Shown here in pieces: positions 7,401-32,785 of a stretch of 32,785 nucleotides of DNA. Source of the DNA: a virus; the IMG/VR virus record IMGVR_UViG_3300025151_000161, positions 1 to 32,785 of that record. One strand, given 5' to 3'. How positions within the stretch are numbered: position 1 is the first letter of the stretch; the number at the start of each line of letters is the position of its first letter. A program made the position numbers and the translations under genes. The notes under the pieces were generated by a model. The model did not search any database. It was given only the letters and a program-made list of their open reading frames with translations, and was not told the DNA's origin.

Positions 7401-7437
7401 GAAAGCCCATAGTTGTTCACGCTATGGGTTTTCTTTT
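7401..7437 (+). terminator. Hairpin overlapping the end of the HTH regulator gene
   Basis: GAAAGCCCATAG (7401-7412) and CTATGGGTTTTC (7422-7433) form a 12-bp stem with a 9-base loop. The U-run (UUUUCUUUU) is on the plus strand, where a G-U pair also keeps the stem continuous. On the minus strand the stem is interrupted by one mismatch and followed by CUUUC. The regulator's TAG stop lies in the stem. It may terminate in both directions. Confidence 0.6.
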
Positions 7438-7601
7438 ACCAAATAATCAGACAACTTTTTAACTGTAGAATAATATACATCGTCACCACGCATTAACCTA
7501 TAAATAGTATGCTTTGACACACCTACGTCTCTTACAACTTTAGCCAGTACACGTTTATCTAATCGCCTAATTATTTCCTCAGTTGATAAAATGTTTTCCA
7601 T
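7422..7601 (-). CDS. Small Cro/CI-like HTH transcription regulator
   Basis: From ATG 7601 the protein has 59 residues and is almost only a helix-turn-helix domain: a helix (RRLDKRVLAKVVRDVG), the turn VSKHTIYRLMRG with the recognition helix, and a supporting helix (YYSTVKKLSDYLVKE). This is the HTH_XRE/Cro class. ATG 7601 is preferred over upstream in-frame starts because GGAG lies 9 bases before it and the longer version adds an unrelated hydrophobic stretch. It is divergent from the plus-strand early block with operator-like repeats between. No integrase is seen, so a Cro-like timing role is as likely as lysogeny control. Confidence 0.8.
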   Translation of the reverse strand: MENILSTEEIIRRLDKRVLAKVVRDVGVSKHTIYRLMRGDDVYYSTVKKLSDYLVKENP

Positions 7602-7617
7602 AAAAAAGTCTCCAATG

Positions 7618-7635
7618 TGCAACTTTATGGTTGCA
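7618..7635. promoter_or_regulatory. Operator-like inverted repeat in the divergent control region
   Basis: TGCAAC (7618-7623) and GTTGCA (7630-7635) form a perfect 6-bp inverted repeat with a 6-base centre, 17 bases upstream of the regulator's start and touching the -35-like TTGCAT of the divergent early promoter. Size and place are as expected for the binding site of a dimeric Cro/CI-like protein controlling both directions. Confidence 0.55.
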
Positions 7636-7662
7636 TATATAAGACTGTTTCCTATATAAGAC
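7631..7662 (+). promoter_or_regulatory. Early promoter for the plus-strand block
   Basis: TTGCAT (7631-7636) and TATATA (7653-7658), spaced 16 bases, make a plausible sigma70-type promoter about 30 bases upstream of the first plus-strand gene. The direct repeat TATATAAGAC occurs at 7636-7645 and 7653-7662, offering an alternative -10 or a regulator site. The -35 overlaps the operator-like repeat. Confidence 0.5.
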
Positions 7663-7689
7663 AAGTATAAATTAGAAAGGTACAAAAAA

Positions 7690-10565: not shown

Positions 10566-10594
10566 TTGACAAGTCTCACAAAAGAGACTATATT
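10566..10594 (+). promoter_or_regulatory. Repeated promoter-operator module, copy 1
   Basis: TTGACA (10566-10571) and TATATT (10589-10594) are separated by exactly 17 bases. The spacer holds a perfect inverted repeat, GTCTC-N6-GAGAC (10573-10577 and 10584-10588). The same layout recurs at 11099 and 11756. A dimeric protein bound in the spacer would block or reshape RNA polymerase binding. Confidence 0.85.
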
Positions 10595-10617
10595 ATATGT
10601 ATAAGAAGGAGAAACCA

Positions 10618-10857
10618 ATGACAATTACTTACAAACAAGAAAAAATGATTAGAGAGTTTGTAGCAGACTTAGGTGGCGCAGAGGTAAGAGGACGTTTACT
10701 TGCTCAAGAATTAGACCGCCCAGAAATTAGAAGCAAAAAACATAATATTTTAGCTATCAAATGGGACGGTTTAGAAAATGGTTTTTGCCTGTGTGCTGAT
10801 GGCGTAAGACGTCAAATGTATTCTTGGGAAATATTTGGTGGCAAAGGTTTTTATTAA
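10618..10857 (+). CDS. Small unknown protein under promoter copy 1
   Basis: The 79-residue protein is not recognised. It has a charged helical N-terminal half (YKQEKMIREFVADLGGAEVR) and a more aromatic C-terminal half (CLCADGVRRQMYSWEIFGG). The start is ATG 10618, with AAGGAG at 7 bases; an in-frame ATG at 10597 is rejected because it lies at the promoter -10 and would be at or before the transcript start. It is followed after 2 bases by the next gene. Context suggests a regulated early or middle gene of unknown role. Confidence 0.65.
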   Translation: MTITYKQEKMIREFVADLGGAEVRGRLLAQELDRPEIRSKKHNILAIKWDGLENGFCLCADGVRRQMYSWEIFGGKGFY

Positions 10858-10859
10858 TA

Positions 10860-11075
10860 ATGAAATTAGTTTTTAAACATAAGTGGACAAAAATCTGGGA
10901 GCTAGACAGCGAGGGTCATTATACTCTGAAATGGAGTTCTTACGGATTTGTCGATAACAAAGCATGGCATCTAGAACGTGATAGAGCGCCCGACACATTG
11001 GAAGGTAAGGACACGGCTACGTGGCATTTCTCCACAAAAAGAGAAGCTTTGAAATTTTACAATACTTTAGATTAA
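10860..11075 (+). CDS. Small unknown aromatic-rich protein
   Basis: From ATG 10860 the protein has 71 residues and is not recognised. It is rich in Trp, Lys and His (FKHKWTKIWELD, YTLKWSSYGFVDNKAWHLE, TATWHFSTKREAL) and appears beta-rich, with no membrane segment or metal motif. The ATG lies 2 bases after the previous stop (TAATAATG), so it shares the transcript from promoter copy 1. An earlier in-frame ATG at 10824 would overlap the previous gene and is less likely. It is followed by the second promoter module. Confidence 0.6.
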   Translation: MKLVFKHKWTKIWELDSEGHYTLKWSSYGFVDNKAWHLERDRAPDTLEGKDTATWHFSTKREALKFYNTLD

Positions 11076-11098
11076 TTAATTAATTTATACACTAGGTG

Positions 11099-11127
11099 TT
11101 GACAAGTCTCATATCTGATACTATATT
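11099..11127 (+). promoter_or_regulatory. Repeated promoter-operator module, copy 2
   Basis: TTGACA (11099-11104) and TATATT (11122-11127) are 17 bases apart. The spacer begins with the same AGTCTCA as copy 1, but the right arm is GATAC instead of GAGAC (11117-11121), so the inverted repeat is imperfect and may bind its regulator less tightly. Upstream, TTATACACTAGGTG resembles TTATACATAAGGTG of copy 1. Confidence 0.82.
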
Positions 11128-11153
11128 AGTAATATAAAAGGAAGGTACACATT

Positions 11154-11729
11154 ATGGCATATGACGAAAACCACGAATATCAGCATCATTACCACCCTTC
11201 TATAGAGGCGCGTAAAATAGCTAATGCCGCTAAGACAAAGCGTAAAAACTGGATTGCATCTGATGATCGTGCAGTAGAAATTATAAAATTTGTTTCTGCT
11301 TATGAAGCATCAAACGATGGCATAGGATTTTTTAACGCAGTTAATTATGGCATAGAACGCTATGGTAAACCCACCGATAATATGCGTAACAAAATGGTTG
11401 CCATCTTAGACAGACGCGCTGCACAAGCTGCTGAGTGGGCAGAGCAAGATGCTAAGTTAGAATATGTTGGCAAAGTAGGTGAACGTCAATCTTTCTCAGT
11501 AGTCGTTAAGCACATTGTAGAATTAGAAACAATGTATGGTTTTTCTTACATCAACATTTGTCGTGACGCTGATAACAACGTTATTGTTTATAAAGGCACA
11601 CAAAAGTGGAAAAAAGGCTCACAAATTGACTGTGTTGCTACTGTCAAAGCTCACGATGTGCGTGACAATGTTAAGCAAACTATTATCCAAAGACCATCAA
11701 AAGTAATGATTGATGGAAAAGATTATTAA
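11154..11729 (+). CDS. Unknown protein with C-terminal OB-like domain
   Basis: The 191-residue protein has an N-terminal basic and helical part (ARKIANAAKTKRKNW) and a C-terminal domain from about residue 105: VGKVGERQSFSVVVKHIV, then TMYGFSYINICRDADNNVIV and GSQIDCVATVKAHDVRDN, ending in KQTIIQRPSKV. This C-terminal pattern recurs in phage and plasmid proteins and looks like an OB-type nucleic-acid-binding fold; I am not sure of the name. The gene stands alone between promoter copies 2 and 3, with a strong Shine-Dalgarno (AAGGAAGG), so it is likely well expressed. Confidence 0.6.
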   Translation: MAYDENHEYQHHYHPSIEARKIANAAKTKRKNWIASDDRAVEIIKFVSAYEASNDGIGFFNAVNYGIERYGKPTDNMRNKMVAILDRRAAQAAEWAEQDAKLEYVGKVGERQSFSVVVKHIVELETMYGFSYINICRDADNNVIVYKGTQKWKKGSQIDCVATVKAHDVRDNVKQTIIQRPSKVMIDGKDY

Positions 11730-11755
11730 TCCATAAAATAATTATCTACACACTG

Positions 11756-11784
11756 TTGACAAGTCGCACGAAAGAGACTAAATT
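11756..11784 (+). promoter_or_regulatory. Repeated promoter-operator module, copy 3
   Basis: TTGACA (11756-11761) and TAAATT (11779-11784) are 17 bases apart. The spacer holds GTCGC-N6-GAGAC (11763-11767, 11774-11778), one change from the perfect repeat of copy 1. It is the promoter for the gene at 11813 and probably for the compact string of genes down to the methyltransferase. Confidence 0.82.
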
Positions 11785-11812: not shown

Positions 11813-12409
11813 ATGACTTACTACACAGGTTTAAAAACGGTTCAAGACCACATCAACTCAGCTTTTGAATACATCAGCGAAGATTCAACTTTTGCTGCGA
11901 AAGCACATCAGAAAGAAGCTCAGAGTTTGTTAAGCGCAGCTTATCGTAGAATTAGAGAAGATAACATAGAGTTCACAAGAGGGACTTTATCAGTTGATGA
12001 TCGTTGGTCAATTCCACATGATCTTTTTCAATTGCGTGAAAAGCATATGCGTTTGTTTGACGAAAAATTTCATGTTGACTTGAATAGACTTGTTTCTCTT
12101 AGAAATGATTTCAAAGCTATGTCTATCGTAAAGCCTCAACCAAAAAATTCTGAGGTAGAGAAAAAACAGAAACAGGTAATCGAAACTGTGACTGATATGA
12201 TCAAGCGCAGAACTGCACAGTATCATGAAGCAGTTGAGCTTGGTAGATTGTTCGGTGGGTTGCCAGTAAGTGTTACTCCTCATCTTGTTACTAATGAGTA
12301 CAACACAACATTTACAAGGTGCTTCTATTACTTGAACGGTAAGTTCACTTCATTGGCTGTAATCTTAGCAGCAGCATCGAAACTAGAAGAGGAAAAGGTT
12401 GGGGCGTAA
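11813..12409 (+). CDS. Unknown helical protein under promoter copy 3
   Basis: I do not recognise this 198-residue protein. It is almost all helical and charged (AKAHQKEAQSLLSAAYRRIRED near residues 29-50, cited by ends; VEKKQKQVIETVTDMIKRR in the middle), with no membrane segment, Cys cluster or nucleotide-binding motif. The good ribosome binding site (AGAAAGGTACAAA before ATG 11813) and its own promoter suggest strong regulated expression. The stop codon lies in the loop of a GNRA-capped hairpin (12397-12418). Confidence 0.65.
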   Translation: MTYYTGLKTVQDHINSAFEYISEDSTFAAKAHQKEAQSLLSAAYRRIREDNIEFTRGTLSVDDRWSIPHDLFQLREKHMRLFDEKFHVDLNRLVSLRNDFKAMSIVKPQPKNSEVEKKQKQVIETVTDMIKRRTAQYHEAVELGRLFGGLPVSVTPHLVTNEYNTTFTRCFYYLNGKFTSLAVILAAASKLEEEKVGA

Positions 12410-12888: not shown

Positions 12889-12977
12889 GTAGGCAAGATA
12901 GATGGATAGCTTTTTTGTGGGCGGTAATGTTAGGCATTGCCGTTTGCAACATAGATAAATTTTTTGTGGTGCAATAA
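12885..12977 (+). CDS. 30-residue single-pass membrane microprotein
   Basis: The frame encodes 30 residues: a basic start (MSRQDR), a hydrophobic segment (WIAFLWAVMLGIAVC, residues 7-21) and a short tail. It should sit in the inner membrane with the N-terminus inside. Both boundaries are coupled: ATGA with the gene before and TAATG with the gene after. If this frame were not real there would be an 88-base gap in an otherwise gapless run. Function is unknown; it is in the early block, far from the lysis genes. Confidence 0.6.
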   Translation: MSRQDRWIAFLWAVMLGIAVCNIDKFFVVQ

Positions 12978-13174
12978 TGGAAACTTGGGAACAAATGACT
13001 GAGAGACATAAGCGTGAACGTTTTAAACTAGTAGCGCAATTCTCTAAAAATACTACGCAAACAGAGGCAGCAAAAAAACTAGATATGTCTTTGCAAGCCT
13101 TAAACAACTTTGTCAAACGCAACAACATACATTGGTGGGTTATTAAACAAGGTCAGCGCAGTGAAAAAACTTAA
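12977..13174 (+). CDS. Small HTH protein (possible regulator)
   Basis: The 65-residue protein has a clear helix-turn-helix in its second half: TQTEAAKKLDMSLQALNNFV (residues 27-46), where AAKKLDMS is the first helix and turn and LQALNNFVKR the recognition helix. This resembles the small HTH proteins such as NinH-type or Fis-like activators found in phage nin-like regions. The N-terminal helix (EQMTERHKRERFKLVAQF) could dimerise. It is a candidate to bind the repeated promoter inverted repeats or to switch on the late operon; neither is shown. Confidence 0.65.
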   Translation: METWEQMTERHKRERFKLVAQFSKNTTQTEAAKKLDMSLQALNNFVKRNNIHWWVIKQGQRSEKT

Positions 13175-32289: not shown

Positions 32290-32785
32290 CTAATCTGGAC
32301 TAAAAGCAACTCCGTAAAGACCTAAACCGCTTATAGAAAAAGTTGTTGCTTGAGAAAGGCTGCCTGCTGTTGTGTGATCTGCTAACAGCAAGTGATCACC
32401 TTCACAAGTAACAACGATGTATTGCCCATCATTGCTAAAATCTACTGACCTTGCCGAATTAGGCGTATTGAGGCTTGCGGCCAACGAAACAGAACCAGCA
32501 GTTGTGTGGTCAATTAAACGTAAACCGTTTGTGGAACTGTCTTGAGTAAACGCAATGTAGTCACCTAATCCACTAAAACAACAAGCTCTACCCCTAGCAA
32601 GCGTAAGTGTGGCTGCACTTGATACACTACTACCACTGCGACTTAATAACCTAAAATAAGGAGACCCATCTTGTGCAACCGCTATATAATTATCATCTGG
32701 AGAAAATGTGCAGTTTTTACCAGATAATGGCAATTCTCCTACAGTAGAAAATGTTGTACCGCTTGATAAATTACCAGAACTGTTA
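32290..32785 (-). CDS. Seven-repeat beta-propeller virion protein, C-terminal part
   Basis: This is the 3' part of the gene that starts at 614 (see 1-614). Bases 32290-32686 encode residues from about 205 to 336, and 32687-32785 repeat positions 1-99. The visible repeats here are the fifth to seventh, with IDHTTAGSVS and ADHTTAGSLS marking blades six and seven. An in-frame ATG at 32733 is an internal Met and not the true start. The protein ends with FSPD and a TAG stop that overlaps the ribosome binding site of the chaperone gene. See the N-terminal entry for function. Confidence 0.85.
   Translation of the reverse strand, partial: NSSGNLSSGTTFSTVGELPLSGKNCTFSPDDNYIAVAQDGSPYFRLLSRSGSSVSSAATLTLARGRACCFSGLGDYIAFTQDSSTNGLRLIDHTTAGSVSLAASLNTPNSARSVDFSNDGQYIVVTCEGDHLLLADHTTAGSLSQATTFSISGLGLYGVAFSPD
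32687..32785. repeat. Terminal direct repeat, right copy (assembly overlap)
   Basis: These 99 bases are an exact copy of bases 1-99. They carry no extra gene content and should be counted once. See the left copy for the reasons to treat the genome as circular. Confidence 0.95.

Follow-up and report, generated by a model that had tools for sequence, protein, structure and literature searches.

The window analysed here is the whole of the IMG/VR virus record IMGVR_UViG_3300025151_000161 (positions 1-32,785; 32,785 bases). Positions 1-99 and 32687-32785 are identical, and because of this exact 99-bp terminal repeat the window is probably a complete genome, that of a small phage of probably marine origin. 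The terminase is 44-47% like those of Methylophilales phage Venkman and of HTVC010P-type pelagiphages. An O-like replication protein, the terminase and the head genes are encoded leftward, and from about 7690 onwards an SSB, a NinB-like protein, an HNH nuclease and small early genes are encoded rightward, the label "early" being taken from position and gene content. No tyrosine integrase was detected in the window in a search with a working control. A search of the window for a T7-type RNA polymerase gave no match, but its control gave none either.

Three promoters of the type TTGACA-N17 had been reported in a preliminary description at 10566, 11099 and 11756, and all of them are present on the plus strand. 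Module 1 (10566-10594) consists of a -35 box TTGACA (10566-10571), the predicted operator AGTCTCACAAAAGAGACT (10572-10589), which is a perfect dyad, and a -10 box TATATT (10589-10594); a conserved YRTA at 10600-10603 lies close to the presumed start. In module 2 (11099-11127) the -35 box at 11099-11104 is followed by AGTCTCATATCTGATACT (11105-11122), with one arm change, and by TATATT (11122-11127). Module 3 (11756-11784) has its -35 box at 11756-11761, the operator AGTCGCACGAAAGAGACT (11762-11779), also with one arm change, and its -10 box at 11779-11784. The -10 sequence given earlier as common to the three copies holds for copies 1 and 2, while copy 3 reads TAAATT. The spacers were said to carry GTCTC-N6-GAGAC or a variant differing at one or two bases; a dyad was indeed found in each of them, with a departure of at most one base (perfect at 10573, one change at 11106, GATAC, and one at 11763, GTCGC). 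The likeness of the upstream flanks of copies 1 and 2 was confirmed, and copy 3 has a weaker likeness there too.

The full dyad covers 18 bp, AGTCTC-N6-GAGACT, its final T being the first base of the -10 box. In each module a T-rich upstream stretch is followed by TTGACA, by the 18-bp dyad, which takes up the spacer, by TAWATT and by a short leader. The module is 66-71 bp long, and the three copies in the window are 73-77% alike. The exact combination TTGACA-N15-19-TATATT was found twice, against 0.03 expected from shuffles of the window. The dyad alone, with up to two mismatches, occurred 7 times in the whole window where 4.5 were expected and is not rarer than chance; its significance therefore lies in the position within the spacer and in the 71-nt repeat present in three copies with 73-75% identity. 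The operator pattern [ATG]GT[AC][TG]C-N6-G[AC][GT]AC[TAC], built from the modules of the window and its relatives, has three sites in the window, every one inside a module.

The gene behind module 1 (10618-10857, plus strand, 79 aa) is followed by a second ORF of 71 aa (10860-11075, plus strand), and no PHROG, Pfam or PADLOC match was obtained for the 10618-10857 product. Module 2 precedes an early gene of 191 aa (11154-11729, plus strand; phrog_27218) and module 3 one of 198 aa (11813-12409, plus strand; phrog_8776). PADLOC, Pfam and PHROGs named no function for any of these cassette genes. No terminator was seen upstream of modules 2 and 3 in the window sequence. The distance from operator to start codon is 27-36 nt ahead of different genes in most cases, and it is shorter in contigs L045 and L052.

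Relatives were collected from IMG/VR, 80 loci through the product of ORF 7916 and 47 through the small HTH protein encoded at 7422-7601, with several contigs in both sets. Conservation of the inverted repeat in relatives had been set beforehand as a check on the operator. Within the arms, the outer G, T and C were as well conserved in an alignment of 17 modules as the TTG of the -35 box, and better than the four final bases of the -10 box. The arms remain paired though the -35 box varies (TTGACT, TTTACA, TTGCAA), and so does the -10 box (TAATTT, TAATCT, TACTGT); the hexamer pairs around kept dyads include TTGACT..TAATTT, TTTACA..TAATCT and TTGACA..TACTGT. Contig L062 has five modules, of which three are perfect with AGTATC/GATACT and two have one arm altered (AGTAGC or AGTTGC). 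Judged from these sequences, its arms have changed in pairs, mostly to AGTATC/GATACT. The number of module copies per phage in the lineage ranges from one to five.

The copies could also be simply duplicated strong promoters, with a dyad that is a by-product of common descent and no operator at all, and their likeness within the window as well as between phages is what such an origin would give. We find this unlikely, as the arms are among the most conserved positions in relatives, above most of the -10 box, change in pairs in L062 and persist in modules whose hexamers have drifted. The data support the proposal that the modules are sigma70-type promoters with a predicted operator in the spacer, together forming a small regulon. 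A grading of repression by operator quality, as suggested earlier, is possible; the "imperfect" operator of module 2 is identical letter for letter in L011, L021 and L179.

That the dyad works at the RNA level, as an intergenic hairpin for termination or processing, would agree with the listing of AGTCTC-N6-GAGACT as a terminator-like stem. This is extremely improbable, since the stem has 6 pairs only and no real T run, the AGTATC variants would form still weaker stems, and the transcript that follows the dyad starts downstream of it.

When whole contigs of 31-36 kb were scanned, AGTMKC-N6-GMKACT occurred in 4, 2 and 1 places in L062, L021 and L011, respectively, only at modules, and the reversed control pattern was never found in these contigs. 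In IMG/VR the strict long module pattern had no match. A looser pattern gave 71 matches, mostly to a different module, TTGACAGGTATC-N6-GATACC, a spacer-operator promoter that is common among prophages and further viral contigs (L135, L147, L153, L160 and about 50 others) and precedes RHH or HTH genes wherever an ORF was seen. It was rejected as part of the same system, as the genes that it heads in prophages are different ones (RHH, other HTH) and the examples tested showed no link to the 7422-7601 HTH family.

The preliminary description overlooked that the genes behind the modules are unrelated from one phage to another. Between phages the 66-bp module is 70-95% alike, while the similarity of the adjoining sequence, on at least one side and often on both, is in most pairs no higher than that of shuffled sequence. 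The module at 11105 of the window is 95% alike in L011, with flanks at 15% and 15%. The one at 10572 is 91-96% alike in L021 upstream, and no similarity is left just past the start codon; in L021 and L026 module 1 heads an unrelated 61-aa ORF. Between L014 and L050 similarity likewise ends just behind the module. Relatives of gene 11154 were found in an HT-class contig (L024, 90% identical) with a module and in a P-class contig (L028, 84% identical) without a module and with another leader, these classes being defined below by the HTH protein. The modules are islands ahead of different small genes, so that the module acts like a portable head placed before early genes. It may either move by recombination at shared sequence or persist while genes turn over, and the shared 66-80 bp perhaps serve as a recombination joint. 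Sequence comparison also indicates that the early operon is strongly mosaic: in L011 and L012 the HTH protein, SSB and NinB are 98%, 98% and 99% identical to those of the window, yet ORF 7916 is only 59% identical.

Neither of the two HTH proteins of the window had been thought to fit the site, and the regulator had been considered possibly a host protein. The present results point to the 59-aa Cro/XRE-type product of 7422-7601 (minus strand) as the best candidate, a putative repressor of both the modules and its own promoter region. Its gene is divergent and first in the leftward unit, ahead of the replication protein. The product matches phrog_18104, a transcriptional regulator (1.8e-11), and scores 19.7 against Pfam HTH_26, just under the cut-off of 22. 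Its AF2 model (pLDDT 92) has four helices, and the structure neighbours include the XRE-type proteins HipB, SinR and Aca11, with weak E-values (best 0.2); a PDB sequence search with the product gave weak HTH matches only. It combines the HTH fold with a family match for Cro/C1 (XRE) regulators. A small HTH protein is encoded leftward beside ORF 7916 in 67 of the 80 loci.

These proteins were divided by recognition helix into an HT class (SKHT or SRHT as in the window, with one SRFT) and a P class (SRPV or SKPT). A module was counted where paired GT[AC][TG][CT] half-sites had an adjacent -35 box, and the HT-class contigs used were non-redundant and extended at least 2.9 kb downstream. Modules were present in 11 of 14 HT-class and in none of 18 P-class contigs; the Fisher value of 2.8e-6 overstates the evidence, as the contigs are related and HT and P are partly separate clades, so that they are not 32 independent cases, and the counts were made on the very data from which both the classes and the module pattern had been derived. 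The HT-class contigs without a module under the strict rule are L035, L042 and L052. The choice between C and A in the arm is not strictly tied to the HTH protein, since L014 and L045 have nearly identical HTH proteins with arms TGTCTC and TGTATC. A profile made from all 16 HTH proteins was too diverse for a genome scan. Genomes of Methylobacterium, Microvirga and other Hyphomicrobiales contained relatives of ORF 7916, but neither this HTH protein nor convincing modules.

Two other candidates from the window were discarded. For the HTH protein of 12977-13174, no relative was detected in the module-bearing contigs L062, L055 and L037, and one was found in L051, which has no module. A methylation switch operated by the 13815 methyltransferase was set aside because most module-bearing contigs are without a detectable relative of that enzyme.

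The region between the HTH gene and ORF 7690 contains sites resembling those of the modules, in a layout that recurs in the sequences of relatives. Candidate operator O1, AGTCTCCAATGTGCAACT (7607-7624), ranks fourth in the window by weight matrix and first in its own intergenic region, with 0 of 500 shuffles as good, and it is kept in relatives; it is weaker as evidence, because its overlap with the Shine-Dalgarno sequence of the HTH gene explains part of the match. Candidate operator O2, GGTTGCATATATAAGACT (7629-7646), lies 22 bp from O1. Its GGTTG, followed at exactly +12 by a module-type half-site, was found in 14 of 14 HT-class intergenic regions, half of which (7/14) have a further half-site 22 bp past that of O2. 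A weak third site, TGTTTCCTATATAAGACA (7646-7663), has lost its left arm in L005. O1 and O2 are less symmetric and weaker sites than the modules. The altered L062 module arm AGTTGC equals the arm of O1 in the window, O2 has GGTTGC, and in the HTH promoter region of L062 the O2 site carries GATACT.

O2 covers the -35 box of a putative rightward early promoter, P_R (7631-7658, plus strand, TTGCAT-N16-TATATA), which would serve ORF 7690 onward, and the -10 box of a putative leftward promoter, P_L (7636-7664, minus strand, TTGTCT-N17-TATATA), which would serve the HTH gene and is kept in L005. The P-class regions mostly have TTTACA-N15-TGTAAA between the HTH gene and the early operon instead (L028 6216, L016 6255, L057 5914, L051 6254 and others), which can be read as two promoters, a TTTACA-N17-TAAAGY on each strand, that overlap and face in opposite directions. 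In the window, a hairpin GCCCATAG/CTATGGG with a T-rich tail was observed at 7403-7436, immediately to the left of the HTH gene. It is kept in L005 with paired changes (GCCCACAG/CTGTGGG) and is likely a terminator.

Since the HTH class tracks the modules and like half-sites lie beside the HTH gene, the regulator is likely phage-encoded. The phage could instead borrow the operator of a host repressor that binds the dyads. In favour of this, no close HTH relative was found in named phages beyond that of Pseudoalteromonas phage H103, at 38%. We regard a host repressor as unlikely, given that in the phage sequences compared module presence follows the phage HTH class and that like sites occur at the promoter of the HTH gene itself, all in phages with a common early region.

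We favour, as probable though well short of certain, an arrangement in which the modules act as promoter-operator heads for exchangeable early genes that are shut off jointly by one Cro-like repressor. The modules would be strong early promoters for the host sigma70 polymerase with an operator dyad in the spacer between -35 and -10, and because the dyad fills this spacer, a bound protein dimer would exclude RNA polymerase. This dimer would most likely be the phage's own 59-aa protein, expressed from the divergent leftward promoter and acting also on the similar sites, two or three in number, in the promoter region of its own gene, O1 and O2 among them. Upon infection all promoters would fire, and as the protein accumulates the early genes and its own gene would be shut off together. 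The head would be kept in the lineage, and the small gene behind it, plausibly one for host takeover or anti-defence, would be swapped.

Repression is the expected mode because of the placement of the operator. Proteins of the Cro/CI type can act as activators from sites upstream of a promoter, and the 7422-7601 protein might accordingly activate the modules, or activate some and repress others. This is very unlikely, since the site occupies the spacer between -35 and -10, which has the optimal length of 17 bp, and the hexamers on either side are near consensus. Aca proteins, whose repeats are situated in the core promoter, act as repressors (PMC9410906) and lowered reporter expression by about 90% on average.

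By analogy, the repressed-head design appears closest to the early genes of SIRV2 and to the PeSLs of T4-type phages, and it is also near the Aca-controlled acr promoters. The latter share with the modules a small HTH protein and an inverted repeat inside the core promoter; some have a second like repeat, and strong promoters are shut off there (PMC9410906), as is predicted here. Unlike the aca genes, which lie within the repressed acr operon, the HTH gene is 3-4 kb off and belongs to a divergent unit encoded leftward, and one site is common to several promoters that lie apart. No acr gene was recognised in the window, the arrangement departs from the definition of an acr-aca operon, and the likeness to Aca is one of design. 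In SIRV2 the same regulatory sequence stands before many small early genes that are not related to one another, and Aca8, an Aca-like viral HTH protein, has been proposed as the repressor of them all (PMC11065993). One regulatory sequence ahead of several unrelated small genes is likewise found here, with the difference that SIRV2 has archaeal TATA/BRE promoters and a wHTH protein, and the window sigma70-type promoters, a spacer dyad and a Cro/XRE-type protein.

As far as they are described in PMC4503421, which cites Arbiol 2010 and Comeau 2014, the PeSLs are early-promoter elements between small exchangeable genes and are thought to mediate shuffling. A conserved promoter between unrelated, exchanged genes was also found here. 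In the PeSLs of that account, however, the promoter comes together with a stem-loop; in the modules it comes with a predicted operator and no terminator, and stem-loop and ribosome-site elements occur apart from the modules in L062 and others. Like lambdoid Cro, the protein is small and of Cro type, and the sequence beside its gene has putative divergent promoters and two to three tandem candidate operators (O1 and O2 being 22 bp apart). The system differs in its predicted operators dispersed in the spacers of accessory promoters, and, unlike in the lambdoid switch, no tyrosine integrase was found and no CI-like ORF faces the HTH gene among the ORFs scanned. A comparable principle is that of the phiC31 and L5 repressors, which have many dispersed sites.

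Three ideas known separately are joined here: spacer operators with small phage HTH proteins, a shared early promoter sequence, and promoter cassettes as exchange joints. Tentatively, and with somewhat more doubt than confidence, they can be extended to a lineage-wide plug-in system in uncultured bacterial phages. In such a system a portable promoter-operator head would be read by one phage Cro-like protein, new small genes would thereby join an early, timed-off programme, the shared head would be the recombination joint, and the genes behind it would form a host-takeover and anti-defence collection that can be mined by the head sequence. If the favoured arrangement is right, a 25-base pattern finds the accessory early genes of these phages even where their proteins are dissimilar, as a search by regulatory sequence did in archaeal viruses (PMC11065993). 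The regulator/operator pairs could then be used to study the drift of DNA-binding specificity.

A further element was observed ahead of small early genes in several lineages and in both HTH classes. It consists of a G-run/C-run hairpin with a ribosome site (CAGGGGGG-loop-CCCCCCAGAAAGG..ATG) and was not found in the early region of the window. Such hairpins are located in L062 at 10321, 11424, 11680 and 12169, and in L003 (4964), L039 (6875), L065 (9865), L070 (10743), L077 (7482) and L082 (10072). They are possibly a second portable gene head, with a role in translation or in mRNA end protection.
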